Part shown: in pieces, positions 946-16,480 of the stretch
Numbering within the stretch: the first letter of the stretch is position 1
Layout: each line of letters starts with the position of its first letter
Source of the DNA: Desulfobacula sp.
GTDB lineage: Bacteria > Desulfobacterota > Desulfobacteria > Desulfobacterales > Desulfobacteraceae
Length of the DNA stretch: 41,522 bases
Reading direction: 5' to 3'
Assembly: GCA_021647625.1 (NCBI GenBank)
Contig: JAKIUJ010000012.1
Location: forward strand, 1 to 41,522
Notes under the pieces: model-generated
Seen by the model: the letters and a program-made list of their open reading frames with translations, nothing else
What the model was told of the DNA's origin: nothing
The model's database searches: none
Translations under genes and position numbers: made by a program

Positions 946-1575
946 ATGGGCATACATGAACGCAAACAAAGAGAAAAGGAACAAAGGCGACAGGAAATTA
1001 TAGTCGCTGCAAGAAAGATTTTTTCACAAAAAGGATTTAACACAGCCACAATGGAAGAAATTGCTTCGGAAGCTGAGTTGAGTCCCGGAACCTTATATCT
1101 ATATTTTAAAAACAAAGAAGAGCTTCATACTTCACTTTCCATCGAAATTTTGAAAAGATTGACCGTTGAAATACAAAAAGTTGTTAAACAGGATATTTCT
1201 GTTGAGGAAAAGATTGATCGCTTTCGAGATGTTTTTGTAGAAATTTATGATTACGATTCCAATATTTTAATCAATCTTTTTCATCTACAGTCCGGTGAGA
1301 CGCTTAAGAATCTATCAGAGGATGTTCTGCATCAGATCAAAGAGCACTCAGCACTTGCTCATGGCGCTATAATTGATGTGGTAAAAGAAGGCATTGAACT
1401 GGGTATTTTTATTGATGAACATCCTGTAGCCCTTGCAGATGTATTATGGGCTTCCTATGCAGGAATTGTATTATGGGTAGATTCTAAAAGATTGTTAAAT
1501 GATGAAAAGGATTTTGTAAAATCAACATTAACAACTGCCTTTAAGCTTATTAGCAGGGGGCTCAAAAAAGACTAA
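946..1575 (+). CDS. TetR/AcrR-family transcriptional regulator
   Basis: A 209-residue protein with an N-terminal TetR helix-turn-helix at about residues 10-56: AARKIFSQKGF, then TMEEIASEAELSPGTLYLYF and KNKEEL, the standard TetR_N pattern. The C-terminal 150 residues are the divergent ligand-binding half, so the ligand is unknown. I chose the ATG at 946 because GGAGG lies at 936-940 directly before it; the upstream in-frame ATG at 931 overlaps that ribosome binding site. It is transcribed away from the CoA-transferase gene, the usual arrangement for a local repressor that also represses itself. TetR regulators next to acyl-CoA or CoA-transferase genes often sense acyl-CoAs (family knowledge), but that role here is inference. 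Confidence 0.9.
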   Translation: MGIHERKQREKEQRRQEIIVAARKIFSQKGFNTATMEEIASEAELSPGTLYLYFKNKEELHTSLSIEILKRLTVEIQKVVKQDISVEEKIDRFRDVFVEIYDYDSNILINLFHLQSGETLKNLSEDVLHQIKEHSALAHGAIIDVVKEGIELGIFIDEHPVALADVLWASYAGIVLWVDSKRLLNDEKDFVKSTLTTAFKLISRGLKKD

Positions 1576-1582
1576 ACTTATT

Positions 1583-1730
1583 TAGTGCCTGACCGAAAAC
1601 CCGTGTTTGGGCGAAAAGTTGCCCATATGCAAGGCGCAAGAAATCCTGAAACCGAAGTGTACTATAGTACATGAGGATTTCAGGATTTTGCAGCAATAAA
1701 GCAGATGGGTGGGTTTTCGTTCAAACACTA
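1583..1730. repeat. Long imperfect palindromic repeat (REP/MITE-like element)
   Basis: Nearly all of this intergenic stretch folds on itself. The outer arms are GTGTTTGGGCGAAAA at 1603-1617 and TTTTCGTTCAAACAC at 1714-1728, with mismatches; inner arms are AAATCCTGAAA near 1641-1651 and TTTCAGGATTT near 1678-1688; the centre is the perfect palindrome GTACTATAGTAC at 1659-1670. Nested arms and a position between convergent genes suit a palindromic intergenic repeat or small non-autonomous element. It is the only copy in the window. Its right edge supplies the stop codon of the gene ending at 1728. Confidence 0.65.
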
Positions 1731-2267
1731 TTTACATAAACGATGAATCGTTTGGGCATGCCAATCGCCTCTACCTGAAAATGTGGGTATGCCCTTATCT
1801 CTCAAATATTCGGCAATGATGGCAAATGTAGTACCACTACTTCTCATATCCCGTATAATCGTCAAGATATCATCTTTGGTATAGTGTGTTCCGGATGCAT
1901 AGCTTGTTGTTGCTTTTGTTTTCCTGCCGGATGTATGAGGTATAGGTACTTCGCTGAAAAGCTTGTTCAGATTATCGAAAAAATCAGCAATTGCATTGTG
2001 TTGGCGAATCTTTGCCTCAAGCAGATTAGGATCTTTGGCTTTTCTCGTTTGAATGTGTTGTATCAGCTGGGTTGTATTATCGGTTAGCTCGGGTAAAATA
2101 TCGTTCAGGCAGCTCCACAAAATTTCAAGGCCTTCAGAATGATTAGACCTCCTGTCAGACATGTGCCTTCTTTCTTTTTGTGGATAATAGTTACCACCCT
2201 GATTCCGTCTTGGAATAGATTGTTCTTTTTTATGAGAACTTCTCAGGTTCCTTAAAAAATCGCTCAT
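1728..2267 (-). CDS. Hypothetical protein with a recombinase-like C-terminal motif
   Basis: A 179-residue protein with a good GGAGG site before the ATG at 2267. The N-terminal 60 residues are basic and low in complexity (ERRHMSDRRS). A central helical part (about residues 48-110) follows. The C-terminal 45 residues, including TIIRDMRSSGTTFAIIAEYL and GIPTFSGRGDWHAQTIHRL, resemble the helix-turn-helix found after the catalytic domain of large serine recombinases, where IA..L...GIPT....W....V is typical. No resolvase catalytic domain is present. It may bind DNA, but I do not recognise a named family. Its TAG stop lies in the edge of the neighbouring palindromic repeat. Confidence 0.65.
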   Translation of the reverse strand: MSDFLRNLRSSHKKEQSIPRRNQGGNYYPQKERRHMSDRRSNHSEGLEILWSCLNDILPELTDNTTQLIQHIQTRKAKDPNLLEAKIRQHNAIADFFDNLNKLFSEVPIPHTSGRKTKATTSYASGTHYTKDDILTIIRDMRSSGTTFAIIAEYLRDKGIPTFSGRGDWHAQTIHRLCK

Positions 2268-2566
2268 ACCGGCACCTCCAGAAATATGAATATAGTATTA
2301 TATTTAAGTGAAAGTATACGTAAACTGAACTAAGGATCGGCTCCAAAATCAGTTGATCTTTTGTTTTCATAATACCCAGTCTTTTAAGGGGCTTTGGAAA
2401 CAATTTAGATCAAGTTGTTTTGTAACGATTCCTAAGCGAAAAAATAATTTTCAAGAATTGAATATGATTTATATTATTAATTATAATAATATAGTTTTAA
2501 TCTCTAAGTCAACCCGGCAGTGGAAAATAAAAAAAATATCAGATTAATAGGTTTAAAAAAAAGCGA
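2268..2566. other. AT-rich intergenic region, nothing recognised
   Basis: This 299-base stretch lies between the 5' end of the recombinase-like gene and the 3' end of the AMIN-porin gene. It should contain the promoter of the former. I see no convincing reading frame, terminator hairpin or repeat in it. Confidence 0.5.
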
Positions 2567-4537
2567 TTAAAAATAGTATTTCAGGTCGATGAAAATTTGA
2601 TCATTCCTGGTATATTGCCCAAAAATGCTATCATCAGATCCTTCGAATAAATGAACGCCGAAAATTGCTTCAAAGTTTTTGATATATGTGTAAAGCAAAC
2701 GTGGCGAAAGATAATAGGACCCATCATTAATCATTGTTGTGCCCTGAATTGAAACATTTAGCCAGTCGGCGATAAGATTTTTATTGATTTCACCAATGAG
2801 CGAATAGTTGTCTTGATCATAAAATAATATGTCGGACTCAAAATTTTTAATGTATTGGTGGGCAAATTGTAAGTTGAAATACCAATTGTTTTCGCTGGTG
2901 TAATCTATGCCTACAATCCAGGAAAGTGTGGGTTTCCTGACAGAGGTTAAAGACGAGGTTAAAAGGGATACATTTTCTTTGAAAGCTGCTTCTCCTCGAA
3001 TACCCATTGATGAAAGAATCGTTTCGAACTCTAAACCAAATATATGAGTTCTCAGATACTTGGCCCGAATTGATTCGTTTGTTAACGTCAAGCTACCCAG
3101 ATTGGAGAGAATATCCTGAATGGATCCTGAATTTCTCAACGACAAGTTTTTCACCGGAAAACTTTCAAAAGTCGGCTGGTCTTCAGTTGCATAATGATAG
3201 GTAAAACCAAAATCAAATTGTTCGATAGATCCTCCGATTCTTAGTGCATATTCAAAACTGTCTTCATCTTTTGGTTTTATCTCTTGAACACCTATGGATG
3301 CGAAATAAGCTTTTTGAGTCGGGGAAAGAGGGGAGTCTTCAATATCGTCTTTTAGATGTGTAAAAGTAGCCCAATCCGTGCCAAAATAATCAAATTTGTC
3401 TGATTCAAAAAATGGGATAAAAACACCTTCGATAAAAAAACTATTTCTCCGATATATAAAGTCAGCCATCCAGACCGGAATTTTTTTTTCTTCATACGAG
3501 GGAATGATAAATTCCGTATTGTTGACAGGATTTAAGGTATCTATGAGACTAATCTGATCAGTCTTTCCCCACCGCTTGATCTGTTTTCCGAGCGTTACGG
3601 TGAAGTATCCCCGGCTATGCCGCAGATATGTCTCAAACAAATCAATGTCATAGCTGTCTGTTTCATTTTTGCTGCCAAAATAAAGGTAGTCAGACAGTAC
3701 GGAAAGAACAAGATCATTTTTATATTTAATTTTTAAAATGGATCTGTTTTTAAAACTGAATTTGTTTTCATTAGTATTGTCATGATCAGTATCTATGGAT
3801 ATGCGTGTTTGGATGGATGCAGATACACGCATATCTTTAGGTGTATTCTTCTGGGAATATGAAAGATCTGTTTGATCGAATATAGCCTCATCAAACGATG
3901 ATTGATTAAAAGCGGTTAATGTCTGATTTTCGGATGAAACTATCTGTAAGGATGGCTCCTGTTTGGCGGGGGGTGCAATCTTATTGGATGGGGAGGTGTT
4001 TAAAACCTGGGTTTTTGCTTTTAATATGCTTGATGCGGGTTCATGAGGTATATTCGAACCAATTTGGGCTAACAGAACGGGTTGGAGCAGGGCATTTTTT
4101 TTTATTGCAGCGGTTTTCTTCGCATTTGGAAATGAAATAGTTGTAAGGTAAATATTTTTTGACAGCTTTGTTTTATGCGTTAAATAACTTTTGTCTTTTA
4201 GTACATCAAGAACCAGCCGGGTACTGTTTTTTGTATTTTGTGATATTCGTACCTTTAATATATTTCTGCCGTCGACTGTTTGGTTCTGATGGACTTTGGA
4301 GAAAAAAGTATTTGATAAGGTACACACAATTCTTTGGGGAGAAGAGAGTTGGAATATATGCAGGTTTGGATTGCCAAAGGTTTTTATTTGAATTGTTTCA
4401 ATATTATTTGAGATATGATGAGTAGCGGATATCAGACGATTTGAAGGTAGTGCATATGCAGGGCTGTATATCTGGCAATATATCGATAAAACCAGACTCC
4501 ATTTAAACAGATTTTCTTTTTTGAATAGATCCACCAT
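2567..4537 (-). CDS. Outer-membrane porin-like protein with N-terminal AMIN domain (DUF1302-like barrel)
   Basis: A 656-residue exported protein. Residues 1-30 form a hydrophobic signal peptide ending near YALPS. Residues about 35-145 match the AMIN pattern found in PilQ and AmiC: an L..PQRIVCTLSN strand, then ILKVRISQN and TRLVLDVLKDKSYL. AMIN domains bind peptidoglycan or localise proteins in the envelope. After a linker rich in Q, S and T, residues about 235-656 look like a DUF1302-type barrel, with alternating hydrophobic strands, the motif LGKQIKRWGKTDQISLIDTLNP and an aromatic C-terminus (DLKYYF) typical of outer-membrane barrels. It is the last gene of a three-gene set with a LolA-like protein and a TPR lipoprotein. 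DUF1302 proteins often accompany LolA-like proteins and RND exporters; no RND gene is here. Cargo unknown. Confidence 0.75.
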   Translation of the reverse strand: MVDLFKKENLFKWSLVLSIYCQIYSPAYALPSNRLISATHHISNNIETIQIKTFGNPNLHIFQLSSPQRIVCTLSNTFFSKVHQNQTVDGRNILKVRISQNTKNSTRLVLDVLKDKSYLTHKTKLSKNIYLTTISFPNAKKTAAIKKNALLQPVLLAQIGSNIPHEPASSILKAKTQVLNTSPSNKIAPPAKQEPSLQIVSSENQTLTAFNQSSFDEAIFDQTDLSYSQKNTPKDMRVSASIQTRISIDTDHDNTNENKFSFKNRSILKIKYKNDLVLSVLSDYLYFGSKNETDSYDIDLFETYLRHSRGYFTVTLGKQIKRWGKTDQISLIDTLNPVNNTEFIIPSYEEKKIPVWMADFIYRRNSFFIEGVFIPFFESDKFDYFGTDWATFTHLKDDIEDSPLSPTQKAYFASIGVQEIKPKDEDSFEYALRIGGSIEQFDFGFTYHYATEDQPTFESFPVKNLSLRNSGSIQDILSNLGSLTLTNESIRAKYLRTHIFGLEFETILSSMGIRGEAAFKENVSLLTSSLTSVRKPTLSWIVGIDYTSENNWYFNLQFAHQYIKNFESDILFYDQDNYSLIGEINKNLIADWLNVSIQGTTMINDGSYYLSPRLLYTYIKNFEAIFGVHLFEGSDDSIFGQYTRNDQIFIDLKYYF

Positions 4538-4632
4538 ACAAAGTTTCCAATTAATAGTTAAATTAGAACAATCATATTAGAAAATAAGCAACAATAATGC
4601 CAGGGTAACGAATCTAAAAGAAAAAGTTTAAA

Positions 4633-5427
4633 TCAATAATTTTCAAGGGCGGATTTCGAAAGTCGTTCCGGGTCAATTTTTATATTGTATTCAATGTGTT
4701 GTGTCTTTATTAGAGTCTGGTGTTTTCTGTCAAAATCTTCCATCTTTACAATAATTTCCGTCCAGATATTTTGTTTGTTTTCAAGTTTTAGAACGGTGTA
4801 TGTTTTTGTATGCTTCCCTTTTTGGTCAAAATATTCCGCAAGAATTGGCACAAATCCGGTTGTTGTAATAAATGATTTGGTCAATGAGTACTGAGACTTG
4901 ACAGATGGTTTGGGTCGGGTCTCAAGAACATAACAGTCGATATTTGATATTGTTTTTTTACCTTTTAGTTTATAAAGGTAGTTCTCTACTGGTTGTCTTT
5001 CCATATCTTCGTATGTAAAGTCGGTTTGTACGAAACGATGGTGTTTTTGTGAAGAAACAATGCGTCTTGTACGCCTTAAAGCGGACAAATAAATGAATTG
5101 GTCGGTTTTATAACCTTCTTTTTCAACAGTAAGAAAGCCGGTTCCTTCTATATCATTGGGCGATAGAAACCGGATCAATTGTTTTTCAAGACCTTTATTG
5201 AGAATACGCAGGCTTGAAAAAGTTCGTGATACTTTATAACCGGTTTTATCGATCAGAACCATAATTGCAGTTGAATTCGATGTGTTGCCGCGATCTCTGT
5301 CAAAAACTTGTCGCGCAATCTGTTCCCCTGTCAATTTTTCCTGCGCATATAATGTAGTTTGCCAATCGGAGGCTCCCCAAAAACACAAAGAAAAAATAAG
5401 TCCGAGCCCTAACCACCGTTTAGGCAT
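4633..5427 (-). CDS. Outer-membrane lipoprotein-sorting-like periplasmic protein (LolA fold)
   Basis: A 264-residue protein with a signal peptide ending near LYAQEK. The mature part follows the COG2834-type outer membrane lipoprotein-sorting pattern: GEQIARQVFDRDRG at the start, then FLSPNDIEGTGFLTVE, YLSALRRTRRIVSSQKHHRFVQTDFTYEDM, YKLKGKKTISNIDCYVLET and late strands ending in DRKHQTLIKTQHIEYNIKID. Such proteins have a LolA/LolB-like half-barrel that carries lipidic cargo across the periplasm and usually sit beside DUF1302-type porins, as here. The start lies 4 bases after the stop of the TPR lipoprotein gene, and its AAGGAA site is inside that gene's end, so the two are probably translationally coupled. 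Cargo is unknown. Confidence 0.8.
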   Translation of the reverse strand: MPKRWLGLGLIFSLCFWGASDWQTTLYAQEKLTGEQIARQVFDRDRGNTSNSTAIMVLIDKTGYKVSRTFSSLRILNKGLEKQLIRFLSPNDIEGTGFLTVEKEGYKTDQFIYLSALRRTRRIVSSQKHHRFVQTDFTYEDMERQPVENYLYKLKGKKTISNIDCYVLETRPKPSVKSQYSLTKSFITTTGFVPILAEYFDQKGKHTKTYTVLKLENKQNIWTEIIVKMEDFDRKHQTLIKTQHIEYNIKIDPERLSKSALENY

Positions 5428-5431
5428 GCAA

Positions 5432-7717
5432 TTATTCCTTTTTTATTTTAGCAAGTAATTCTTTAGCTTGCGCAGCTTGCTCAAATTTGTCGTTCAATTG
5501 AAGTGCTTTTTTCAATGCTTTTGTTGCTTCTTTTTTCTGGCCTTTTTCATAGTATGCCATCCCTAAATGATAATTAGTAGTAGGGTTTTTTGGAATTTTT
5601 TTCAAGCTGTCTAAAAATTCATTTGCTGCGTTTCCAAATAGGCCTTTTTTAAGATATGCCATCCCAAGGGTATCCATAACACCGGGATCTTCGGGCAGTT
5701 TTTCTTTAGCAATTCTTGCCAATCGCAATGCTTCATCAAATTGAATTGTACGTTCGAGCAAATGGTAGGCCAGATTGTTTGCTGCAGGTGCAAATTTCGG
5801 GTTGATCTCAAGAGCTTTCTTGTAATGAACGGCAGCTTTATCGTATTCTTTATTATTATCGTAAATGGTGCCTATCATCATATGCGGCATGGGCAAGTTT
5901 GGATTTCTTGTTAAGATTTCTTCATAATGCTCAATGGCTTTTTTCCAATTTTTTTCAGCCAGCGAAATTTTAGCCAGAGTGCCGTAGGGCGGTATATATT
6001 CAGGATAGGTTGAAATTGATTTATTAAGTGAAATTTTAGCATTTTCAATATCTTTTTGTGTTAAAAATATGCCGGCTTGAATATTGTGTACAATGGCAAT
6101 GAGTGGTTTTATACCACCATACAGCTGTATTTGTTGTTTGCAAAGTTGATGTGCTCTATCGATGCGACCTTTAATTACATTTATTCTTACAATCTGTGTA
6201 AAAACATCAATTAATTTATTGTTTAAAGCATATGCTTTGTTCAAGTAATCTAAAGCTGTATCATACTCTTTAAAGGCAGATTTTAAGACACCGAGTCGAA
6301 AATATCCCGTTGGATTATCCGGGGTCGTTTCGATAAGTGATAATAGATCTTGTTCAGCAGCTTTAAATTTTCTAAGTCCAATAAATGCCTTGGCCCTTAT
6401 AAGTCTTGCACGATAATTGTTAGAACTGATTTTTAATGCCGATGTTGCCTGTTTTTCAGCCAATTCAAAAGATCGTTCCTTAAGATAGATTTCAGCAAAC
6501 AGGGTTCGCGCCTTTAAATGAGTGGGGCTAAATTCAACCGCTTTTGAGATGGATGCTTTCGCCTGGTCGTATTTACCTGTACCTATGAAACACAGAGCTT
6601 TAAAATATTGAACGCGTGCGGCTTTTGGTTCTTCTTTTTCTATTTCTGATAAAAGAGGCAAGGCATTGTTAAATTCTTTTCTGGTAATGAAAATTTCGCT
6701 TTTAAGCATTTTAGCAGGCAAATAATTACTTCTCTCGGTCAGAATGTCGGATACCAGTTGGTCGGCTTCTTTAATGTCTTTGTGTTTATAATGAAAACGG
6801 GCAATCGTATTTTTCAAGCCCATGTTATCGGGTTTTAAAGCCAATGCCTTCTGATATATTTCCAATGCTTTTGTTTTGTTTTTGTTTTTATCATAGAATG
6901 CCGCTACAATTAAATAAGGTCTTAAAACAGAAGGTGTGACTTTAATGGCTTTTAAATAATTTGCTTCAGCCGATGCATTTTTTTTCTGATTAAAATAAAG
7001 ATTGCCAAGCAATATATAGGGTTCAGGAGTATCAGAGGATTTTTCTATTGCAAGTTTTAATTGGTCCTCAACCTTGTCCATTCTTTTTTGTCTTACATAA
7101 AAACCGATAAGAATCATTCTGACAGTCAAGTTTCCAGGTTTTAAATCAACCGTTCGAAATAATAATTTTTCTGCTGCTTCAAAATCCTTTTCAATGGTGT
7201 AAACTTTTGCCATATTTTGCATGGCAGAAATGTTTTCAGCGTCAATGGTAAGAATTTTTTCATAAATATTAAAAGCCTTTTTATAGAATTTTCCTTGCAT
7301 AAAAATCTGGCCTTTTACAAGCAATGCTTCAATATTCTCAGGTTTTTTTTCAAGAACAAAAACAATTTTTTCCATTGCCTGTTCCGTTTTTTTGCCCAAA
7401 AGTAAAAATTCTGCGATTTTTAAATTGGCCTGAATATCATTTTCATCAAAACGGAGGATTTTATTATAGATTCGAAAAGCGGCTTTCAGATTGCCCAAGC
7501 GAAACATGTTTTTAGCAAGAAGATGATATGCCTCAATATAATTGGGATCTAACTGTAGTGCGTTTTTTAATTCAATGTCCGCCTTTTTGTATTCTTTAGC
7601 ATCAAAATATGTTGATGCTTTTTCAAAAAAGGCTTCTTTTTTTTCAGTGTCAGACTGACACCCTGAAAAAGAACCCACCATCACTGCAATACAGATTAAT
7701 TTAACCAGAAATTTCAT
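5432..7717 (-). CDS. Large TPR-repeat lipoprotein (PrsT-like)
   Basis: A 761-residue lipoprotein. I chose the ATG at 7717 because a GGGGG-rich ribosome binding site precedes it and the protein then begins with a lipoprotein signal, FSGC with the cysteine at residue 20 followed by Q, suggesting outer-membrane sorting. From about residue 30 to the end it is almost wholly tetratricopeptide repeats of about 34 residues (for example YKKALEINPKFAPAANNLAY and LGMAYYEKGQKKEATKALKK). The architecture resembles PEP-CTERM-system TPR lipoproteins (PrsT), which act in envelope assembly or polysaccharide export. It starts a minus-strand operon with the LolA-like and AMIN-porin genes and is divergent from a set holding a second TPR lipoprotein of similar size. 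Likely a periplasm-facing scaffold (inference). Confidence 0.85.
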   Translation of the reverse strand: MKFLVKLICIAVMVGSFSGCQSDTEKKEAFFEKASTYFDAKEYKKADIELKNALQLDPNYIEAYHLLAKNMFRLGNLKAAFRIYNKILRFDENDIQANLKIAEFLLLGKKTEQAMEKIVFVLEKKPENIEALLVKGQIFMQGKFYKKAFNIYEKILTIDAENISAMQNMAKVYTIEKDFEAAEKLLFRTVDLKPGNLTVRMILIGFYVRQKRMDKVEDQLKLAIEKSSDTPEPYILLGNLYFNQKKNASAEANYLKAIKVTPSVLRPYLIVAAFYDKNKNKTKALEIYQKALALKPDNMGLKNTIARFHYKHKDIKEADQLVSDILTERSNYLPAKMLKSEIFITRKEFNNALPLLSEIEKEEPKAARVQYFKALCFIGTGKYDQAKASISKAVEFSPTHLKARTLFAEIYLKERSFELAEKQATSALKISSNNYRARLIRAKAFIGLRKFKAAEQDLLSLIETTPDNPTGYFRLGVLKSAFKEYDTALDYLNKAYALNNKLIDVFTQIVRINVIKGRIDRAHQLCKQQIQLYGGIKPLIAIVHNIQAGIFLTQKDIENAKISLNKSISTYPEYIPPYGTLAKISLAEKNWKKAIEHYEEILTRNPNLPMPHMMIGTIYDNNKEYDKAAVHYKKALEINPKFAPAANNLAYHLLERTIQFDEALRLARIAKEKLPEDPGVMDTLGMAYLKKGLFGNAANEFLDSLKKIPKNPTTNYHLGMAYYEKGQKKEATKALKKALQLNDKFEQAAQAKELLAKIKKE

Positions 7718-7816
7718 TCGTCCCCCATATTGATATTCAAGTGCTTGTATAAGCATTTATCATGTGTTAAATATTTGTCAAACAAAAAACATAATCTCAT
7801 GTCAGGTGTCAATTTG

Positions 7817-8650
7817 GTGCGTAAGCTTCTTTTTCTATTCTTTATTATATTATTTGGACATTTCAAATCCGGCTATGCGTTCTACCAAACTTACGAGAAC
7901 ACGGAAGAATTACGGATTGAACATACAACAAAAGAAGCCGCAACTCAAGACAATATTGGGTATCACCTTTATGATAACCTGGTTTCAAAAACCTCATCTT
8001 TTTTTCTTTCAAAAAAAATAGATAAGTTTATTTCTTTTGATCAAATAGAAATAAATATTCCGCTAAGATTTTTGTCTAAGAACTTAATCACAGCCGAAGA
8101 CTCCATGGATCGAATGCTGACATCTAACCTTAGAATTCGGCAGATTTTATTTGAATATCAAAAAATCAAAAACAGGGCGGAGTCCTTATTGAGAAACAGG
8201 GACGTGATTCATGCTGAGACAAAGAATAAAAAACCGCTAAAAAGTTCTGAAACCACTGCTAACTCAATCGAGGATCAAATTACAAAATTAGAAAATATAA
8301 TCATAAATATAAATAGATCCGGTCTTGTTCCAAGTGGTGGCTTTGATACTGATGGAATCCTCTCTTTTGATTTCAATGCAAGTCTTGGGCAAAATGTTAG
8401 TGATGCTCAATATCGAAATTTCTATCCCCTAAGCTCACAAGGAGGGCAAAAACAATTTAATACTATTGAATCTGAGTTCAGAGTCGAGTCAAGAACACTG
8501 TCAAATCAAGATGCTGGTCAACTGCCTTGGATTTTTGATGTCTTTTTAAAGCTGATTAATTATATGATGAGCAATCGGGTTGAGATAATGCTTTATGCTA
8601 TGTTCTTAGTGCTGATCGGATTGTTGGTTTCACTCAAGGTTCGGAAATGA
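7817..8650 (+). CDS. Exported protein of unknown function with C-terminal membrane helix
   Basis: About 277 residues. The start is uncertain: GTG at 7817 has an AGGTG site 8 bases upstream and opens directly into a signal peptide (RKLLFLFFIILF, cleavage near GYAFYQ), while the ATG at 7799 lacks a site. The body has charged helical parts, then a Gly/Asp/Phe-rich stretch (about residues 175-235). It ends in one hydrophobic helix (EIMLYAMFLVLIGLLVSL) with a short basic tail KVRK. I do not recognise a family. The C-terminal helix plus basic tail recalls sorting tails, but no PEP-type motif precedes it. Its stop overlaps the start of the next gene (ATGA), so the two are co-translated. It heads the plus-strand half of the envelope locus. 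Confidence 0.7.
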   Translation: MRKLLFLFFIILFGHFKSGYAFYQTYENTEELRIEHTTKEAATQDNIGYHLYDNLVSKTSSFFLSKKIDKFISFDQIEINIPLRFLSKNLITAEDSMDRMLTSNLRIRQILFEYQKIKNRAESLLRNRDVIHAETKNKKPLKSSETTANSIEDQITKLENIIININRSGLVPSGGFDTDGILSFDFNASLGQNVSDAQYRNFYPLSSQGGQKQFNTIESEFRVESRTLSNQDAGQLPWIFDVFLKLINYMMSNRVEIMLYAMFLVLIGLLVSLKVRK

Positions 8651-10914
8651 AATTTTTTTTAATCGTCTTATTGTCAATTATGATTATGTCTGGGTGTAGC
8701 GATGGAATTGATGATATTTCTCTTATTGAAAAAGGGGATCTTGCATTTGCCAGAAGAGATTATGCCATAGCTGCGACTATCTGGAATAATGCCTATAGGA
8801 AAGATCCAAATAATTCAAACCTAATGGAAAAACTTGCTGAATGTTATATAAGGTTGGGTAGATTAGAAAGAGCTAAGCTTGTTTTGCAAAAAGCTATAGA
8901 GACCTTCCCAGGCAAGGTTGACATCCAAGTTCGTTTGGCTCAGTTGTTTGTTCTCACTTTGGATTTTTCTTCGGCTCAAGAAATAAGTGAAAAATTAGAA
9001 AAACAAGGGTTTAACAGCCCTGAATTTTTAATTTTAAAGGCAGATTTAAGCCTGATGAAAGATAACCGGGAGGCGGCCGAAAAATTCTACAGGAAAGCTG
9101 TTATCGTATCAAAAGATTCATTTCGAGCGCTCATGAAACTGGCCATTTTTCTTAAATCTGCAAATCGAGAAGAAGAATCGTTCGAAATTTTTTCAATTGT
9201 TCAAAGAAATAAGGTTCTTGACCCTAAAATTTTTCTGCTGACAGCAGATTATTATTTGTTGGGTAATGATTACCAAAATGCAGAGGCCTCCATAAAAAAT
9301 GCGATCAGGATAGAGCCCGAAGAAATCGGATTACAATACTATTTGCTCAATTTTTATATATCTATCGGCCAAAATGATAAGGCTGAGTCGCTTTTAAAAA
9401 GGATGCTTGAAATTCAGGATGATATGTATCTATGGATGACGCTTGCAGATCTTTATTTAATCAATGGTCGGTACGATAAAGCTGAAGGGATAATCCTGAA
9501 ACTCAAAAAGATCCGGCAAGCAAAAACTGCAGGATTTGAATTGTTGCAAGGTAAATTTTGGTTATATTCCGGCCAGCCGGTATTTGCTACCTCTCACTTT
9601 AAATCGGCGCTTTCCTTAAAACCCGGATTAGTAAATACGCGATATTATCTTGGGCTTACGCATTTAATTAATGGAAAAATTAAGTTGTCAGAGAATAGCC
9701 TTTCCCAGACACTTCTAATTCAACCAAGTCACCATCATGCCCAGCTTCTTATTTCCGAGCTTCTTTATAAAAAAAAAGAATATGAACTGTCATTAAGTTA
9801 TCTTACTCAATTTTTAGCTAAATATCCCGAGGATTTTACAGGGCTTGTACTCAAAGGGCTTAATCTGCTTGGACAAAACAAATATTTAAGAGCAAAAAAA
9901 CAATTTCAAAAAGCCCAGACTTTAAGCCATGATAAGCAATATATAGCCCACTATTACACAGGACTCTCAAATGAAAAATTAAAAAATTTTAAAGAGGCAT
10001 TAAAAAATTATTCTTCTATTTTAAAAACGCATCCTCATTTAATTGATGTTTCATATCGATATTGCTTGATGCTTTTAAAAAATGGGAAACAAAAAAATGT
10101 TCAAGACTTCATTGCTCAAAGACTGGCATCCGGAAGCCAATCTCCTGAATTTTATTATATATTTGCAAAAGTGGCTGCTAAAATGGGCGCCATACCCGAA
10201 CAAGAAAAATTGTTAAAAAAAGCAATTGAACTGGACGACAGTGCAAGCTTTTTATTTTTGGAGCTTTCGACTCTTTATAAAAACAGTAAAAAATTTAAAG
10301 ACTCAAAAATGATTTTGGAAAAATGTACTCAGTTAAATCCATATTATGAAGAGGCCTGGCTTGCTCTAAGTCAAAGCTATCTTGAAAGTCGGGATATACA
10401 AACAGCTTTAAAAATTTTAGAGAACGGGTTTGAGAAATTTAAGGACTCGCCTCTGTATCAGAGCAACATTGCCTGGTTATATTTAGAAAATGAAAAAGAG
10501 ATGAATAAAGCATTGGATTTGGCTCAAAAGGCCTATGAAAAAATGCCGGACAACCTTGCTGTTGCTGATACACTAGGGTGGGCCTATTATCACAAGAGAA
10601 TATTTTCCCAAGCCACTTGGTTATTATCAGATATTGAAAAAAAAGCACCCGATAATGGGTATATACAGTATCACCTTGGGATGACATACTATCAGCAGGG
10701 TAACTTTGAAAAGGCCACTGTACATCTCAATAAAGCGAAAATTTCCAAGGTGTTCAATTCTTTTTCAATGGAAATTGACAATGCATTATCCGATTTAAAA
10801 AATAAGGAAAACCTGTCAACGGATAAACCATCGATTGAGCAAAATTCTATCATTGAATTTCCAAAATCCAATGATACGGAAAATGATCTGCTTGAGCCCC
10901 AGTGGATGCAATAA
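8647..10914 (+). CDS. Second large TPR-repeat lipoprotein (PrsT-like)
   Basis: A 755-residue lipoprotein with signal sequence and lipobox MSGC (cysteine at residue 17, followed by S), then serial tetratricopeptide repeats to about residue 710 (for example AIETFPGKVDIQVRLAQLF, YYLGLTHLINGKIKLSENSL and YHLGMTYYQQGNFEKATVHL) and a short low-complexity tail. Size and repeat layout mirror the divergent TPR lipoprotein at 5432-7717, so the two are likely paralogs. The start overlaps the previous stop by four bases. Such proteins in PEP-CTERM and exopolysaccharide loci are thought to scaffold envelope complexes. Here it probably works with the ExeA-OmpA ATPase downstream (inference). Confidence 0.87.
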   Translation: MKFFLIVLLSIMIMSGCSDGIDDISLIEKGDLAFARRDYAIAATIWNNAYRKDPNNSNLMEKLAECYIRLGRLERAKLVLQKAIETFPGKVDIQVRLAQLFVLTLDFSSAQEISEKLEKQGFNSPEFLILKADLSLMKDNREAAEKFYRKAVIVSKDSFRALMKLAIFLKSANREEESFEIFSIVQRNKVLDPKIFLLTADYYLLGNDYQNAEASIKNAIRIEPEEIGLQYYLLNFYISIGQNDKAESLLKRMLEIQDDMYLWMTLADLYLINGRYDKAEGIILKLKKIRQAKTAGFELLQGKFWLYSGQPVFATSHFKSALSLKPGLVNTRYYLGLTHLINGKIKLSENSLSQTLLIQPSHHHAQLLISELLYKKKEYELSLSYLTQFLAKYPEDFTGLVLKGLNLLGQNKYLRAKKQFQKAQTLSHDKQYIAHYYTGLSNEKLKNFKEALKNYSSILKTHPHLIDVSYRYCLMLLKNGKQKNVQDFIAQRLASGSQSPEFYYIFAKVAAKMGAIPEQEKLLKKAIELDDSASFLFLELSTLYKNSKKFKDSKMILEKCTQLNPYYEEAWLALSQSYLESRDIQTALKILENGFEKFKDSPLYQSNIAWLYLENEKEMNKALDLAQKAYEKMPDNLAVADTLGWAYYHKRIFSQATWLLSDIEKKAPDNGYIQYHLGMTYYQQGNFEKATVHLNKAKISKVFNSFSMEIDNALSDLKNKENLSTDKPSIEQNSIIEFPKSNDTENDLLEPQWMQ

Positions 10915-11027
10915 AAACACAAAATAAAATTATCTTGAGATTTTTATTGTTAGAAGGTAAGTTTTATATATTCGTATCGCCTTGAATCAATTTTAATATT
11001 GCTGTTTCATTTACCGGAGATAGAAAT

Positions 11028-11606
11028 ATGAACAAAAATATACAGAATCCGTTATTCAAAAAAGGCATCTGGATTAAAGAGCAACAGGGACGTCTTACGA
11101 TGGGATCTTTGGAAGGAAATGACAATGGCCCCATGGTTCTGCCGGATGATTTATGTTCACGTATTTTTGAATTCGAAAATGATATGATTGAAGCGCTTTA
11201 TGGTGATCAAAAAATTCCATTTAATCCCGAGATCATTGACATTGAAAAAATGTTGGCCGATATCAAAACAAAATTTAGCAAATACAATTTACGTATTTCA
11301 TTTTCCGGATCGCCTGATTATATTTTTAAAGGGGATTATTATGATATATTTAATATATTTGAAAAATTGGTGTTAAGCTCATTGTCAGGTGCTTCAAAAA
11401 AAGATACCGAGCCCTTGATCTATATTAACGCTTCTGTATTGGAAAACCATCTTTGTATTATCTACAGGGATGCTGAATCCTGCTCCAACCCTTCCTCGCT
11501 AAAAGAGGAAATCGATTTTATTAAAATACATTTAAAAGGTGAAATCAGTTATAAAGCCCCTGCTTTAAAAAAAGCATACTATGATATTATGATACCGTCG
11601 AAATAG
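11028..11606 (+). CDS. Hypothetical protein with degenerate HATPase-like C-terminal half
   Basis: A 192-residue soluble protein with a GGAG site before the ATG. The C-terminal half (about residues 100-190) follows the outline of a histidine-kinase ATPase domain: a helix at the N-box position (DIFNIFEKLVLSSL), a strand PLIYINASVLENHLCIIYRDAE at the G1 position, then IDFIKIHLKGEISYKA and a final strand YYDIMIPSK like the usual F.I.LP ending. The N-box asparagine and the DxGxG glycines are absent, so ATP binding looks unlikely. It may be a structural or binding relic of a sensor kinase. This is fold-level inference and could be wrong. It lies inside the envelope gene set, 113 bases after the TPR gene and 286 before the coiled-coil gene. 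Confidence 0.65.
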   Translation: MNKNIQNPLFKKGIWIKEQQGRLTMGSLEGNDNGPMVLPDDLCSRIFEFENDMIEALYGDQKIPFNPEIIDIEKMLADIKTKFSKYNLRISFSGSPDYIFKGDYYDIFNIFEKLVLSSLSGASKKDTEPLIYINASVLENHLCIIYRDAESCSNPSSLKEEIDFIKIHLKGEISYKAPALKKAYYDIMIPSK

Positions 11607-11892
11607 TTGCGGATACCGCAAAAACAGGGCTAACACAGGTAAATTTTTTATATTTATGATTTCAGGTAGTTGCGGTTTGAAGGTAAATCCAAATGAAATT
11701 ATCGTTTTGCATAAGTTCCGTAAAACATTTGTACCAAATGCATTACGGTATCTGTAAAACAAAAAATTGAAAATCATGCCGGGGTTACATGCGTTTACCC
11801 TGCGCAAAAGTACTGAATTACTTGATTGATACAAGGTTATAAGATATGGTTTGCTTCAGAATTTTAACTAACTGATGTGAAATTGTAGAGCC

Positions 11893-13050
11893 ATGAAATT
11901 TTTTCCATTAAAAATAGCCATCACCTGTTTGCTGTTAACACCAATTCTTTATGTATTAACACTCTCCATTTGTGAAAATCAATTTGATAAAAGATATTCC
12001 GATCAAATTCAAAATATCTTGATTGGAGATACAAAACCCTTATTGGACGGATCTGTCCATCTCGAAGAACAGATCGCAATGAATATTGATAGATTTCTTA
12101 GAAATGATTTTAAGGTTGAAAAAGCCGGGTTAGCTATTAAAGTCAGGGTAATCACACAGTCAGGCAAGATAATTTATCCAATATTCCTTGATGTTGATTC
12201 TCTTGAAAAAAATTTAGATCATGGTTTTGATTCAGATATTATTGGCAAAAAAAATTTTGACATTCTAAATAATGGTCTCGAGATAAAAATTGAAACCAAT
12301 TTAAATCACGGCTCGCTTATAAGTAATGCAATCTTAATATTTTATTGCGGTATTTCATTCGGCATTTTTTTTATTTTTTATAGTATCGGCAGTTCCAAAG
12401 CAGAGAAGGAAACAGAAAAGAAAACTCAGATTATTACTGATTTAATGAAGGAAGAGGAATCTTACAAACAAATATTAAAGGATCTAAAAAAAGATCGCCA
12501 AGGGTTGTTTGAAAATATTAAAATTCTCAATTCAAAGTATCAAAACGATATTACAAAGGCAAAGGTAAATGAAGATGAACTTTTTGAAGAGATTATTTCT
12601 TTAGAGGCGCAGCTCAAATCATTTATTGACTTAAAACGAAGCCGGGAAACTGAGATATCCGAACTAAAATCAAAGGTCCAAAAATTTGAGCGCCGAAAAA
12701 GTCCTAAACACAAACGTCATGAATTTGAATTTTACGAAAAACGATTCACAGCACTTTATCGAAGTATCAAGATGGACCGTAAGGCTCTATCCGGTTTCTT
12801 AAAGTTAAATGAAGATCAACAAATAAAAGCAGAAGAGCTCATTCATCTGCTTGATAGAAACATTGATAAGATTGTTATCAAACGAAAGGTTTTTTCTGGT
12901 AAAAAACATAGAACAGCTTGTTTTGAAGTCTTGTTCGCATACAATGGACGCTTGTATTTTAGAAAGAATAAAAATAATAAGACAGATGTTTTGGTAATTG
13001 GTACGAAAAACACACAATCAAAAGATATGGAATTTTTACACCACCTATAA
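11893..13050 (+). CDS. Membrane-anchored coiled-coil protein with RelE-like C-terminal domain
   Basis: A 385-residue protein with a clear layout. A first membrane helix is at about residues 8-27 (ITCLLLTPILYVLTLSI), a periplasmic part of about 115 residues follows, and a second membrane helix is at about 143-166 (ILIFYCGISFGIFFIFYSI). Then comes a charged coiled coil at about 170-270 in the cytoplasm. The C-terminal domain (about 325-385) reads IVIKRKVFSGKKHRTACFEV, LYFRKN, VLVIGTKNTQ, which resembles the strands of RelE/ParE-fold proteins (FE..F...GRLYFR...VLVIGTK). I do not recognise a named family. The next gene starts 4 bases after its stop. The topology suits a signal-transmitting or docking partner of the following ATPase (inference). 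Confidence 0.7.
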   Translation: MKFFPLKIAITCLLLTPILYVLTLSICENQFDKRYSDQIQNILIGDTKPLLDGSVHLEEQIAMNIDRFLRNDFKVEKAGLAIKVRVITQSGKIIYPIFLDVDSLEKNLDHGFDSDIIGKKNFDILNNGLEIKIETNLNHGSLISNAILIFYCGISFGIFFIFYSIGSSKAEKETEKKTQIITDLMKEEESYKQILKDLKKDRQGLFENIKILNSKYQNDITKAKVNEDELFEEIISLEAQLKSFIDLKRSRETEISELKSKVQKFERRKSPKHKRHEFEFYEKRFTALYRSIKMDRKALSGFLKLNEDQQIKAEELIHLLDRNIDKIVIKRKVFSGKKHRTACFEVLFAYNGRLYFRKNKNNKTDVLVIGTKNTQSKDMEFLHHL

Positions 13051-13054
13051 TTTT

Positions 13055-14905
13055 ATGTATACTTCATTTTATAATTTAAAAAGAAAACCGTTTCAAATCA
13101 GCTCAGACCCTGACTTTATGTGGTTTGGCGAGAAGCATAAAGAAGCCCTTGCAACGCTTAAATACGGAATATTGGATAATAAAGGGTTCTTATTGTTAAC
13201 AGGAGATGTTGGAACCGGTAAAACCACCTTGATTAATTCACTTATCCAAAGTCTGAGCAATGATGTTATATGCACTTCCGTTCCGGACCCAGGATTGGAA
13301 AAAATGGATTTTTTTAACTATATTGCCGAAGCATTTGGCATGGAACAGGAATTTTCAACAAAAGGGAAATTTATAGTTCATTTCAGGAAATTTCTACTCC
13401 AGGCCAATGAAAACAATAAAAAAGTGTTGCTGATAATCGATGAAGCTCAATTGTTAACCCAGGAAATGCTCGAAGAGATTCGCTTGTTGTCTAATATAGA
13501 AAAGGTAGATGCCAAATTAATTAATATCTTTTTTGTAGGACAAAATGAGTTTAACGAAATTTTGAACAGAGAGCAAAACCGTGCCGTCCGCCAAAGACTT
13601 ACTTTAAACTATAATATTGATCCATTAACGCCTGACGAAACAGCCGAGTATATAAAACATCGTTTAGCTGTTGCCGGTACTACCCATATGATTTTTGATG
13701 AATCCGCAACCCAGGAAGTTTTTATGTACTCGGGTGGCTTTCCAAGACGAATCAATGTTATCTGTGACCATTCTTTATTGTCCGGATATGTAAATGATCA
13801 TAAGATTATTAATAATTCCATTGTGAGCGAATGTGCAATAGAATTAAAAATACCAGCCCATATTCAAAATAGAGATCTCAATGGTTTTGCAGCGTACCAT
13901 GAAAGAAAACCACCACCAAAAATACCAAGCCGGCAAACCATTATACCGCCAAAACAATATATTGAGAAAACACAACAATATGTAGAAGAACCACATCGAA
14001 AAAAGGATTCCAAAGTTCTGGGCAGGGTCATTTTGTTTTTGTTTTTGATTTTGACCCTTTTCGCATGGTTTTTTCTTTTTCCGCAAGACCTGCGTTATTC
14101 AACGGATATATTAAACAAGAATTTTAGCACATTAAAATATAATATTAGTCGATTAATTCCAGAACCCTATTTATCTTTTTTTTCAAAGAAATCTGATGAG
14201 GTTCCCCCCCGGGACGAAGTGCCGAACCTACCAAATAACAAAATAGAACAAATAGTAACACAGGGTGGAAATCCCGCTGGAGAAATATTTGATAAAAAAA
14301 AAACAACCAATAAGATTATTAACACTGACTCAGTGACTGATGCAGTCACTGAAATACATCCAATACAGGATGATTTTCTTAAAAAGACGATTAAAACCAA
14401 AATACGTGACTCAGAAGATACAAACAAATCTGTATCGGTACTGGAAAATGAAGAGCAAACACAGTCAAAATCAAATTTGCAATTTCATCAAATAAATGAA
14501 GCTGCCTCACCCCAGGCAATAACCAATACACTAAAAATAGAACCTCAAATAAAAAAAATTCTTCCGCTACCTGACGATAAAGTGATTATACGATTTCAAT
14601 ACAATACCAATGATTTTACTGAAGAAGGATTTAAAAAATTGGCCTTATATTCTGATATTTTAGCGATGCATCCGGAAGCAAGCATTCTGGTTTCAGGGTA
14701 TACCGATTCTGCTGGATATCAAAAATATAATCGAAAGCTTTCTGAATTCAGAGCAAATATTGTAAAAAGTTTTTTAATGGGGAGGGGTATCAAAAACGAA
14801 CAGGTTGAAATTCGGGGATTAGGGAGTAAAAATCCTATTGAGAGTAACGATACCGCCTGGGGCCGAACAATGAACCGCCGGGTCGAAATAGAGGGTAAAC
14901 AATAG
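13055..14905 (+). CDS. ExeA/GspA-type AAA ATPase fused to membrane helix and OmpA peptidoglycan-binding domain
   Basis: A 616-residue protein starting at ATG 13055 (MYTSFYNLKRKPFQISSDPD, the normal ExeA / XrtA-associated ATPase start); the in-frame extension to 12998 only overlaps the previous gene. Residues 1-275 are the AAA domain with Walker A GDVGTGKTTL (about 49-58), Walker B LLIIDEAQLL (about 127-136) and PRRINVICD. A membrane helix is at about 325-345 (VILFLFLILTLFAWFFLFP), followed by a low-complexity periplasmic linker. Residues about 505-615 are an OmpA C-terminal domain with SGYTDSAG and NRKLSEFRANIVKSFL, keeping the Asp and Arg that bind diaminopimelate. So a cytoplasmic ATPase is tied across the inner membrane to peptidoglycan. 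It ends the plus-strand operon. Homologs serve type II secretion (ExeA) or PEP-CTERM/exopolysaccharide loci. Confidence 0.88.
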   Translation: MYTSFYNLKRKPFQISSDPDFMWFGEKHKEALATLKYGILDNKGFLLLTGDVGTGKTTLINSLIQSLSNDVICTSVPDPGLEKMDFFNYIAEAFGMEQEFSTKGKFIVHFRKFLLQANENNKKVLLIIDEAQLLTQEMLEEIRLLSNIEKVDAKLINIFFVGQNEFNEILNREQNRAVRQRLTLNYNIDPLTPDETAEYIKHRLAVAGTTHMIFDESATQEVFMYSGGFPRRINVICDHSLLSGYVNDHKIINNSIVSECAIELKIPAHIQNRDLNGFAAYHERKPPPKIPSRQTIIPPKQYIEKTQQYVEEPHRKKDSKVLGRVILFLFLILTLFAWFFLFPQDLRYSTDILNKNFSTLKYNISRLIPEPYLSFFSKKSDEVPPRDEVPNLPNNKIEQIVTQGGNPAGEIFDKKKTTNKIINTDSVTDAVTEIHPIQDDFLKKTIKTKIRDSEDTNKSVSVLENEEQTQSKSNLQFHQINEAASPQAITNTLKIEPQIKKILPLPDDKVIIRFQYNTNDFTEEGFKKLALYSDILAMHPEASILVSGYTDSAGYQKYNRKLSEFRANIVKSFLMGRGIKNEQVEIRGLGSKNPIESNDTAWGRTMNRRVEIEGKQ

Positions 14906-14953
14906 CAAAATTCCGTGAAAATTCCCTTAGTTTGGCTTAGTTTGGTGGGATTC

Positions 14954-14999
14954 AAAAAAAGGCTGATAAGCAAAAATTGTCTATCAGCCTTGTGTTTTA
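14954..14999. terminator. Hairpin terminator after the ExeA-OmpA gene / tRNA remnant
   Basis: Arms AGGCTGATA (14960-14968) and TATCAGCCT (14982-14990) are perfectly complementary. On the minus strand the hairpin is followed by a run of seven T, so it would end transcription coming from the tRNA-Lys fragment. On the plus strand a weaker TTGTGTTTT follows and could end the envelope operon. Confidence 0.7.
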
Positions 15000-15045
15000 T
15001 GGTGGTCCGTCAGGGAGTCGAACCCGGGACCTACTGATTAAGAGT
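14986..15045 (-). repeat. 3' half of tRNA-Lys(CTT): island attachment-site copy
   Basis: These 60 bases match 17334-17393 at 59 positions; the one difference is at 15006 (T against G at 17354). The repeat covers the 3' flank, encoded CCA, acceptor strand, T arm, variable loop and anticodon loop, then homology ends abruptly at the anticodon stem. A tRNA 3' half duplicated at the far end of an insert is the classic product of integration at a tRNA gene. It cannot make a tRNA because the 5' half is missing. Confidence 0.8.
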
Positions 15046-15180
15046 TGGTTGTTTGATTCTTTATTAATATGTGTTTGTGGCTTTTTCGGTGTAAAACTCG
15101 GTGCTGTTTTATCAAATATTTTCAAGTCTTATTGTATCCTTATATCAACCCTTTTTTTCTAAATTGAAATAGATTCAGTA

Positions 15181-15525
15181 TTATAATTTGGTGGACTGAA
15201 CCCGCTGGATCATGTTCGCCACTTCATTGCTTTCATGAATAATTCCCAACCGGACCTCGGGGTGTTTATTTCGAAAGACTCTAAAGATTTGATCGGCGAA
15301 TGCTTGCCCGATTTGTTTGACACCTACAAAATCTAAAACAACCTCAGTAAATTTGTCAAACCGAGTGATGAGCCGTTTAGCCTGGGATTTTGATATTAAG
15401 GATTCCCCTTCATGCTCCATAAGCTTTACCGGGATAAGAGTTTTATGAAAACTTGGATCTTTATCAGGATCTGCATATTCATTAAAAATGTTGATTAGTT
15501 CTGTTTGAGAATTTTTTTTATTTCC
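15181..15525 (-). pseudogene. C-terminal remnant of a DUF4325 (STAS-like) ATP-binding protein
   Basis: The frame ends at 15181 and shows the DUF4325 signature: LISKSQAKRLITRFDKFTEV, VVLDFVGVKQIGQAFADQIF and VFRNKHPEVRLG. An ATG at 15420 would give a 79-residue protein, but the same frame continues upstream with recognisable family sequence (FNEYADPDKDPSFHKTLIPVKLM), so the true protein was longer. Full family members carry a helix-turn-helix and histidine-kinase-type ATPase domain before DUF4325; that part is missing and no start with a ribosome binding site is visible. I read it as a 5'-truncated gene inside the decayed island. A short functional product from 15420 is possible but unlikely. 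Confidence 0.6.
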
Positions 15526-15730
15526 CCAATATCTTAAGATAAAACAAATAACTATATTAATTTTTAAAAGTAAAGATAAGCCGTAACTTTAAGAATGTAA
15601 AGTGAAAATAAATGTCATTTTGGGAATAACAAATTTCAACATCTCACTAAACTATAAATTTAATCATCTGAGCACCTTCAGGACTCTTTACCTCTGAGAA
15701 GTTCCGTGACACTTTGAGCCCAGGATTTTA

Positions 15731-15955
15731 CTACCCAGGGCCTTTACCTGATAGTTCATAAACAAGGCGCATTTCCGTGCCGGGATATTTCATTTCAGCT
15801 TCATTCAGGTGGTTAAAAAGCTGTTTTATTTTCCTGTTTGCAGCAGGCCTTGATGCATTGTGGACCCTCACAAGCAATAAATCATTTTCCGGCTGTGGCA
15901 AAATATCAGCTTCTGTTACATAAAGATCCTGGAGTAGGCTACGGGCTGCTGCCAT
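15731..15955 (-). pseudogene. Possible C-terminal fragment of a transposase
   Basis: A 74-residue frame ending in TAG at 15731. Its sequence (YVTEADILPQPENDLLLVRV, then NRKIKQLFNHLNEAEMKYPG and MRLVYEL) resembles the tail of large transposase-like proteins, where a TLxVRxH strand and a FPGTxLRLVYEL end are typical. That resemblance is from memory and not secure. The ATG at 15955 has no ribosome binding site and abuts the group II intron remnant, which starts on the other strand at about 15954, so the gene was probably cut there. Alternatively it is an unknown small gene. Confidence 0.45.
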
Positions 15956-16479: not shown

Positions 16480-16480
16480 T

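Follow-up and report, generated by a model that had tools for sequence, protein, structure and literature searches.

The window analysed here is a stretch of 41,522 nucleotides from Desulfobacula sp. (contig JAKIUJ010000012.1), and our subject is a locus of eight genes at its positions 2567 to 14905. On the minus strand lie an outer-membrane barrel with an AMIN domain, a LolA-like periplasmic carrier and a TPR lipoprotein (TPRa). On the plus strand lie an unnamed protein (D), a second TPR lipoprotein (TPRb), a stand-alone protein (F), a coiled-coil protein (CC) and an ATPase that carries an OmpA domain (ATPase-OmpA). We propose, with a probability of about 0.7, that these genes are the inner-to-outer-membrane part of a Desulfobacterales PEP-CTERM/exosortase (XrtA-like) exopolysaccharide/surface-protein system, coupled to a lipid-export arm and placed apart from its partners here. 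This proposal is built on gene content, linkage, co-occurrence and predicted folds. No account of this gene set was found in the open-licence PubMed Central literature searched.

Conservation of the gene set

A single locus holds all eight genes in each of three genomes: the window's own, that of Desulfospira joergensenii (L016) and G054 (L020). These represent three genera and two families, and sub-blocks of the set recur in other Desulfobacterales. This bears out the original prediction, made from the sequence of this stretch, of a conserved set that spans the envelope. For the most part, the set is neither unconserved nor scattered among unrelated partners, though single parts of it also occur apart. 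D has homologues in 10 of the 58 genomes compared, including that of the window. TPRb adjoins D in all 10, the window counted, and TPRa is divergent from D and adjoins it in nine; both adjacencies exceed chance. D is frame-broken in G013, and in G029 TPRa lies on another contig than D.

CC has matches in 32 of the 58 genomes, a count that takes in two short partial matches (G019 and G055). A scan of a collection of 84,980 species gave 42 CC loci, with titles that are Desulfobacterota-type or unspecific proteobacterial; it used two short peptide patterns and picks up close relatives only. Across the phylum, 8 of 297 sampled genomes have CC, the window's own included, and four of these are outside the order. 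Within the 42 loci, for which at most 10 kb on each side was fetched and many contigs are short, CC is accompanied by TPRa in 27, an OmpA-carrying ATPase in 25, F in 9, and D, the LolA-like protein and the barrel in 4 each. Because of these partner counts, we regard CC, TPRa and the ATPase as a core that is widespread, to which fewer lineages have added D-TPRb and LolA-barrel.

Linkage to exosortase and exopolysaccharide genes

In Desulfobacter latus (L143, by length the contig of L034), a same-strand run reads F, CC, ATPase, CPBP protease, TIGR03790, TIGR03007, TIGR03018, TIGR03013, TIGR03027, TIGR03016, EpsI, exosortase and TIGR03006. The roles represented are an XrtA-type chain-length determinant, tyrosine kinase, glycosyltransferase, export protein, outer-membrane protein, EpsI, exosortase and deacetylase. 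TIGR03013 (455 bits, cut-off 393), EpsI TIGR02914 (145, cut-off 43), exosortase TIGR02602 (195, cut-off 105.6) and deacetylase TIGR03006 (288, cut-off 276) score over their cut-offs, while TIGR03007, TIGR03016, TIGR03018 and TIGR03027 score under theirs. A CPBP (CAAX-type) protease of or near TIGR03008 is close to CC in eight loci (L020, at 5755-6405, L034, L035, L036, L038, L040, L044 and L045). The L143 protease clusters with TIGR03008-like relatives, of which those of L020 and L044 score 175 and 194 bits (cut-off 81) and that of L036 scores 68.6, under the cut-off. A TIGR03790-family protein (L143, 12886-14106) and a 58% identical relative (L236, 11522-12733) recur beside these clusters.

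A second locus (L057) has TPRa and CC in one contiguous stretch with PEP-CTERM genes and with an exosortase-like gene that is 27.7% identical to the Desulfobacter exosortase (E 4e-19). PEP-CTERM genes are also near the set in L029, L049, L217, L220 (the L023 locus) and L223 (the L045 locus). Those that follow the barrel in L016 and L020 are PepA-like; at 41.8 and 67.1 bits they are under the PepA cut-off of 80 and over the PEP-CTERM domain cut-off. When PEP-CTERM open reading frames (ORFs) were sought by regular expression, nine turned up in 5 of the 42 CC loci; the window had none. The eight genes had been predicted to be separate both from exosortase/exopolysaccharide loci and from RND exporters. 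Such genes are absent from the window, but they are contiguous with parts of the set in relatives, so that the separation is not supported.

Nor is it supported within the window's own genome (G000), where RND/MMPL, PEP-CTERM, TIGR03694 and TIGR03013 genes are present elsewhere. PEP-CTERM gives 17 matches over the cut-off, all with E ≤ 3.1e-4 and all kept at E ≤ 0.001. Among 14 control genomes, 12 match at E ≤ 10, two of them with one match over the cut-off, and none matches at E ≤ 0.001. Paired matches are seen at C184 5849-7815 and C162 7856-8695. Contig C68 carries an XrtA-type glycosyltransferase (TIGR03013, 464.5 bits, cut-off 393.35) whose match stops 219 bp before the contig end, with no other XrtA gene seen on that contig, and C296 has a weak TIGR03008-like gene (best piece 43 bits, under the cut-off). 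On C220, PEP-CTERM, ThiF/nitroreductase-like, MMPL (PF03176, E 7e-35), TIGR03694 and FeeM genes stand in a row. Therefore, most of the parts that the first analysis found lacking are present in the genome, in dispersed form.

Co-occurrence and the case against linkage

Across the 58 genomes, PEP-CTERM is found in 30 of the 32 with CC and in 9 of the 26 others (p 2e-6); with one genome per other genus, the counts are 14/14 and 5/18 (p 3e-5). An exosortase match of any kind accompanies CC in 24/32 genomes versus 9/26 (p 0.003), where the total of 33/58 includes weak or partial matches and 32 are over the cut-off. For short-frame exosortases, with types assigned from open-frame length, the figures are 18/32 versus 3/26 (18/14/3/23; p 8e-4).

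A number of observations weigh against our proposal. XrtA/exopolysaccharide core genes (glycosyltransferase, export genes or exosortase) are within the stretch fetched, at most 10 kb on each side of CC, in only 2 of the 42 loci. Two more (L029, L062) match a sugar-nucleotide dehydrogenase only, and L040 matches TIGR03790 only. CC also adjoins type II secretion-like genes (by eye, in L051) and other unrelated genes, and fewer than half of the CC genomes have LolA-barrel, as is also true of D-TPRb. Within the window's genus the CC-PEP-CTERM association is marginal (16/18 versus 4/8, p 0.05), and this Fisher test, like the others here, ignores phylogeny and shared ancestry. Eight of the 32 CC genomes have no exosortase match, and 9 of the 26 others have one. 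PEP-CTERM genes within 10 kb of CC show a weak excess (at least 3 versus 0.79 expected, p 0.045; our PEP-CTERM proximity counts are lower bounds). In a conservative test, the same-contig distance between CC and exosortase is not significant (p 0.09, with genomes that lack both on one contig set to p = 1). At the level of families, ATPase-OmpA and TPRb are both under their NCBIfam cut-offs, and DUF1302 is not matched at E ≤ 1 in the barrel copies of the window, L161, L221, L222 and L239. Finally, TIGR02602 and PF09721 give no exosortase match in the window's own genome. Since this genome is 92.9% complete in 332 contigs, an assembly gap is the likely reason.

Some of these points could suit the explanation given first, a free-standing trans-envelope export machine that is independent of exosortase. 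In its favour, exosortase, glycosyltransferase and RND genes are absent from positions 2567 to 14905, no exosortase was found in the genome, and a quarter of the CC genomes have no exosortase match. We nevertheless consider it highly improbable. PEP-CTERM is in nearly all CC genomes, the window's genome has TIGR03013 and the MMPL cluster, and in relatives the exosortase/exopolysaccharide and MMPL/TIGR03694 genes are contiguous with the set. A stand-alone machine was rejected as the leading explanation because relatives carry the exosortase and MMPL genes in the same locus.

Linkage to putative lipid-export genes

Genes of the proposed lipid-export arm are seen in Desulfospira joergensenii (L016, L235) and G054 (L020, L236), where the eight-gene locus is followed by genes for PEP-CTERM, thioester reductase, acyl ligase, MMPL and TIGR03694. 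In G016 (L222), the LolA-barrel pair adjoins TIGR03694 (177 bits, cut-off 112) and an MMPL pump (PF03176, E 3e-35); the same holds in G008 (L221), at 171 bits and E 3e-33. Both have a PEP-CTERM gene within about 10 kb, and the G016 cluster additionally has an acyl ligase, a thioester reductase and FeeM (E 2e-32). In all, an MMPL pump is near the pair in G016, G008, G013, Desulfospira and G054; in the window's own genome, the pump is not adjacent to the eight genes and is located on C220.

Barrel matches were taken as orthologues only at E < 1e-100 (12 of the 28 matching genomes), and these go with TIGR03694: 11 genomes have both, 1 has the barrel only, 3 have TIGR03694 only and 43 have neither (Fisher p 1.8e-8). 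The association is found in the window's genus (p 5e-5) and in other genera (p 0.002). PEP-CTERM genes lie within 10 kb of the barrel at least 4 times versus 0.51 expected (p 0.002). Ten barrel copies were scanned for domains. DUF1302 (PF06980) is in five (L016, L019, L020, L029 and L237; E 7e-12 to 5e-22). AMIN is on five of the six copies linked to TPRa (window, L016, L020, L029 and L161; L019 is without it) and on none of the four in loci without TPRa (L221, L222, L237 and L239).

Alternatively, there may be no joint machine here, and two independent modules could simply lie side by side: a LolA/DUF1302/MMPL lipid exporter with TIGR03694, and the TPRa-CC-ATPase(-F) genes of a PEP-CTERM system. 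The distribution of AMIN just described fits such a division. LolA-barrel is also apart from CC in G008, G009, G013 and G016, and was not seen in 38 of the 42 CC loci, many of which are on short contigs. However, 11 of the 12 barrel-carrying genomes have CC and all 12 have PEP-CTERM, and the two parts are physically joined in the window, Desulfospira, G054, G002 and L029. We take side-by-side modules to be a real possibility, at somewhat less than even odds.

The ATPase is distinct from ExeA/GspA

ATPase-OmpA matches TIGR03015 at 273.7 bits, under the cut-off of 324.5, and only 1 of the 58 genomes has a TIGR03015 match over it. TIGR03015-like ATPases of relatives are of three kinds. The first is short (about 370-385 amino acids) and stands at the end of exosortase/exopolysaccharide operons; the second is GspA-like (about 580-650 amino acids) and is mostly beside a GspB-like gene (by eye); the third carries OmpA and is beside CC. 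In a tree of 32 selected sequences, 15 of the 16 CC-locus ATPases, that of the window included, are in one clade (support 0.94), separate from the XrtA/exopolysaccharide type and the GspA type. The remaining one, a GspA-like neighbour of CC in L058, is in the GspA clade.

ExeA and GspA consist of an AAA+ domain, a transmembrane segment and a peptidoglycan-binding C-terminus. In the window ATPase, a transmembrane segment is near residue 318 and the OmpA domain is C-terminal; PG_binding_1 gives no match, and OmpA (PF00691) is in its place. Identity with ExeA/GspA was ruled out by the OmpA domain and the separate clade. The likeness in layout to ExeA/GspA could still mean that ATPase-OmpA and CC form an ExeA/ExeB-like pair, opening peptidoglycan for an outer-membrane secretin or export channel, and CC loci L051 and L059 are near genes like those of the type II secretion ATPase and platform (by eye). 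But relatives have separate GspA-like ATPases of the second kind, the window ATPase has OmpA and no PG_binding_1 match, and there is no secretin among the eight proteins. We therefore find such a pair doubtful.

Predicted folds of CC and F

CC and F match no named family in Pfam or NCBIfam, and both have unexpected predicted folds. CC was aligned from the window and 38 of the 42 loci (L042, L043, L046 and L055 are partial and were left out). The model from these 39 sequences has a mean predicted local distance difference test score (pLDDT) of 84 and a predicted template-modelling score of 0.42. It shows a transmembrane segment, a periplasmic alpha/beta domain, a second transmembrane segment, a long coiled coil and a C-terminal domain (residues ~288-385). 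This last domain, predicted to be the cytoplasmic part of a transmembrane protein, is modelled as beta-alpha-alpha-beta-beta-beta-beta-alpha, a RelE/HigB fold. CC had been predicted as an inner-membrane coiled-coil protein; the membrane segments and the coil are in the model, but the C-terminal domain had been missed.

The first 27 Foldseek matches of the domain are all titled toxin or toxin-antitoxin, though they are weak (best E 1.7e-3). VIA aligns it with RelK (Z 10.7, root-mean-square deviation 2.3 Å, 80 residues aligned), and 45 of the 50 VIA entries listed are toxin or toxin-antitoxin, and a further two are of Cami1, a RelE-like effector, in one case on the ribosome. In an alignment of the domain from the window and 24 of the 42 loci (L061 not included), Pfam Gp49, a HigB-like family, is weakly matched in 3 of the 25 members (best E 4.8e-4) and not in the window copy. 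The sole Pfam match of the window domain is THSD1_N (E 0.0069), shared by 6 of the 25. Over the 39 sequences, the mean share of the commonest residue is 73% in the RelE-fold part, 53% in the coil and 46% in the periplasmic part, and the RelE-fold domain has invariant K, R, E and Q residues.

The model of F (AlphaFold, 10 sequences, mean pLDDT 81) has the fold of a histidine-kinase catalytic (CA) domain over residues 66-192 (Foldseek E 2e-7 to the CA domain of PhoQ; VIA Z 12.3, root-mean-square deviation 3.0 Å, 119 aligned). By eye, the N-box Asn seems to be replaced by Ser. F has no Pfam match at E ≤ 0.01, and hence none to the HisKA/DHp phosphoacceptor domain; its L034 orthologue has none at E ≤ 1. 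Sequence-profile searches of PDB sequences with CC and F gave coiled coils and weak or chance matches, with no RelE and no clear kinase; PhoQ appears for F at E 0.73. Because the folds of CC and F emerged from the models alone, the absence of other families from these lists is uninformative.

These architectures suggest another possibility, in which CC and F are mainly for signalling. The periplasmic domain would sense the state of envelope or polysaccharide, the coil would relay this, and a RelE-fold domain held by F would act on RNA or ribosomes, tuning matrix synthesis. The RelE-fold part being the best conserved, with its invariant residues, is consistent with this. On the other hand, the fold alone does not show a RelE/HigB-type toxic RNase activity, and such domains may serve as adaptors that have no activity; next to CC no antitoxin gene was noticed, and F is near few of the CC loci. 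A mainly signalling unit is therefore unlikely in our view. More speculative still, and quite improbable, is that CC would be the first case in which a RelE/HigB-fold domain has been co-opted by a transmembrane protein of an exosortase/exopolysaccharide system to serve as its cytoplasmic output. The state of periplasmic assembly would pass through the coiled coil to a domain acting on ribosomes or RNA. With F and the ATPase, it might tune or power matrix export, and the LolA-like carrier with the peptidoglycan-bound DUF1302 barrel would be a dedicated lipid route. No paper on RelE with exosortase was among the matches listed (titles and abstract starts).

Proposed mechanism and comparison with known systems

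For the exosortase-linked system that we propose, we infer the biochemical steps and their order as follows. The TIGR03694/FeeM-type exosortase-associated N-acyltransferase on C220 would make an N-acyl amino acid or similar lipid, which the MMPL/RND pump beside it may lift to the periplasm. The window's LolA-like protein would ferry the lipid across the periplasm, and the AMIN/DUF1302 barrel, held by peptidoglycan, would deliver it into or through the outer membrane. There, the PrsT-type TPR lipoproteins may act on PEP-CTERM proteins and polysaccharide. Together, CC and the AAA+-OmpA ATPase would make up an inner-membrane, peptidoglycan-anchored unit, either motor or sensor, and would couple envelope assembly to ATP or to a signal from the cytoplasm, as ExeA may do for its secretin.

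The window set resembles PEP-CTERM/exosortase (EpsH/XrtA) systems in its PrsT-type TPRa, which is over the cut-off, and its TIGR03015-like ATPase, in the PEP-CTERM proteins and XrtA-type glycosyltransferase of its genome, and in the contiguity of F-CC-ATPase with the exosortase cluster in Desulfobacter latus. It differs in that no exosortase is in the window or was found in the genome, and in an OmpA-bearing ATPase with a clade of its own. Excerpts of PMC1569441 (Haft 2006) define PrsT, PrsK and PrsR; compared with the system as given in those excerpts, the set adds CC, F, D, TPRb, the LolA-like protein and the AMIN/DUF1302 barrel. In Aquincola, prsT is needed for floc formation according to PMC9850573, where the relation of PEP-CTERM proteins to exopolysaccharide is called largely unknown.

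PMC6394551 describes a cluster of DUF1302, LolA-superfamily and RND genes for monoterpenes, AmeABCD of Castellaniella. Our locus likewise has a LolA-fold periplasmic protein with a barrel of putative DUF1302 type, and an MMPL/RND pump in the same genome and adjacent in relatives. Unlike AmeABCD, the barrel has AMIN, the pair adjoins a PrsT-type gene, and the link is to TIGR03694/PEP-CTERM rather than terpene metabolism. N-acyl amino acid synthases adjoin PEP-CTERM/exosortase genes (PMC7293339, citing Craig 2011, which PMC11072679 and PMC4897644 cite as well). In strain LW13, an exosortase-associated one is needed for the polysaccharide band and for growth in gradient culture (PMC11072679), and the role of N-acyl amino acids is called not clear in PMC4897644. 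Here, too, TIGR03694/FeeM is beside PEP-CTERM genes, but an MMPL pump comes with them, and some relatives add a LolA-like carrier and barrel, which could make up an export route. The same literature gave no paper that connects exosortase with LolA, DUF1302, MMPL, TIGR03694 or TIGR03015.

ATPase-OmpA shares the AAA+, transmembrane and peptidoglycan-binding layout of ExeA/GspA-GspB of type II secretion, and is unlike it in having CC as a neighbour along with the OmpA domain and separate clade. Residues 288-385 of CC share the predicted fold of RelE/HigB/YoeB toxins; unlike those, they are fused to a membrane anchor, a periplasmic domain and a coiled coil. The continuity of the locus offers a concrete, deletable list of parts from the cytoplasm to the outer membrane, and close relatives of the set occur in the named isolates Desulfospira joergensenii and Desulfobacter latus.

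Features of the locus and its surroundings

All eight predicted ORFs are in place and have the domains described (Table 1), and the lengths given for the two TPR proteins (761 and 755 residues) are correct.

Table 1. Genes and intergenic region of the eight-gene locus, in window coordinates
Feature	Position	Strand	Description
AMIN + putative DUF1302-type outer-membrane barrel	2567..4537	-	656 aa; AMIN PF11741 E 2.7e-7
LolA-like periplasmic carrier	4633..5427	-	264 aa; PF17131 (LolA_like) E 1.9e-50; DUF1329 E 3.9e-8
TPRa, PrsT-type TPR lipoprotein	5432..7717	-	761 aa; TIGR02917 332.5 bits, cut-off 312.2
Divergent intergenic region	7718..7798		81 bp, between likely starts of TPRa and D
D, unnamed family	7799..8650	+	283 aa from likely ATG
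TPRb, second TPR lipoprotein	8647..10914	+	755 aa; TIGR02917 242.9 bits, under cut-off 312.2
F, stand-alone protein	11028..11606	+	192 aa; predicted histidine-kinase catalytic (CA) domain fold
CC	11893..13050	+	predicted two transmembrane segments, periplasmic alpha/beta domain, long coiled coil, C-terminal RelE/HigB-fold domain
ATPase-OmpA	13055..14905	+	616 aa; AAA_22 E 3.4e-26; OmpA PF00691 E 1.3e-17

By eye, the LolA-like protein has an N-terminal signal, and both TPRa and TPRb start with a lipobox-like signal. Aligned over 748 columns, TPRa and TPRb share 23% identity; between TPR proteins, such a value says little for a recent duplication. D has a signal segment and a C-terminal transmembrane segment with a basic tail (hydropathy and alignment), and no Pfam or NCBIfam match at E ≤ 0.01. 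Its terminus, a recurring EI-transmembrane-basic tail, could be a processing signal.

Two divergent gene sets sharing one promoter region had been predicted. The sets do diverge from the gap between TPRa and D, but promoter signals are at chance level, with 57 sigma-70-like sites observed versus 54.9 expected in 1500-16500 and 175 sigma-54-like sites versus 176.8 across the whole window.

At lower coordinates than the barrel, a small unnamed gene (1728-2267), recombinase-like at its C-terminus by eye and without a Pfam match, is found with a TetR regulator (931-1575); the two accompany TPRa or CC in relatives L012, L013, L038, L044 and L160. Beyond the ATPase, a short ORF at 16481-16873 is PIN-domain (VapC-type)-like by eye alone, and a tRNA-Lys gene is at 17348-17423.

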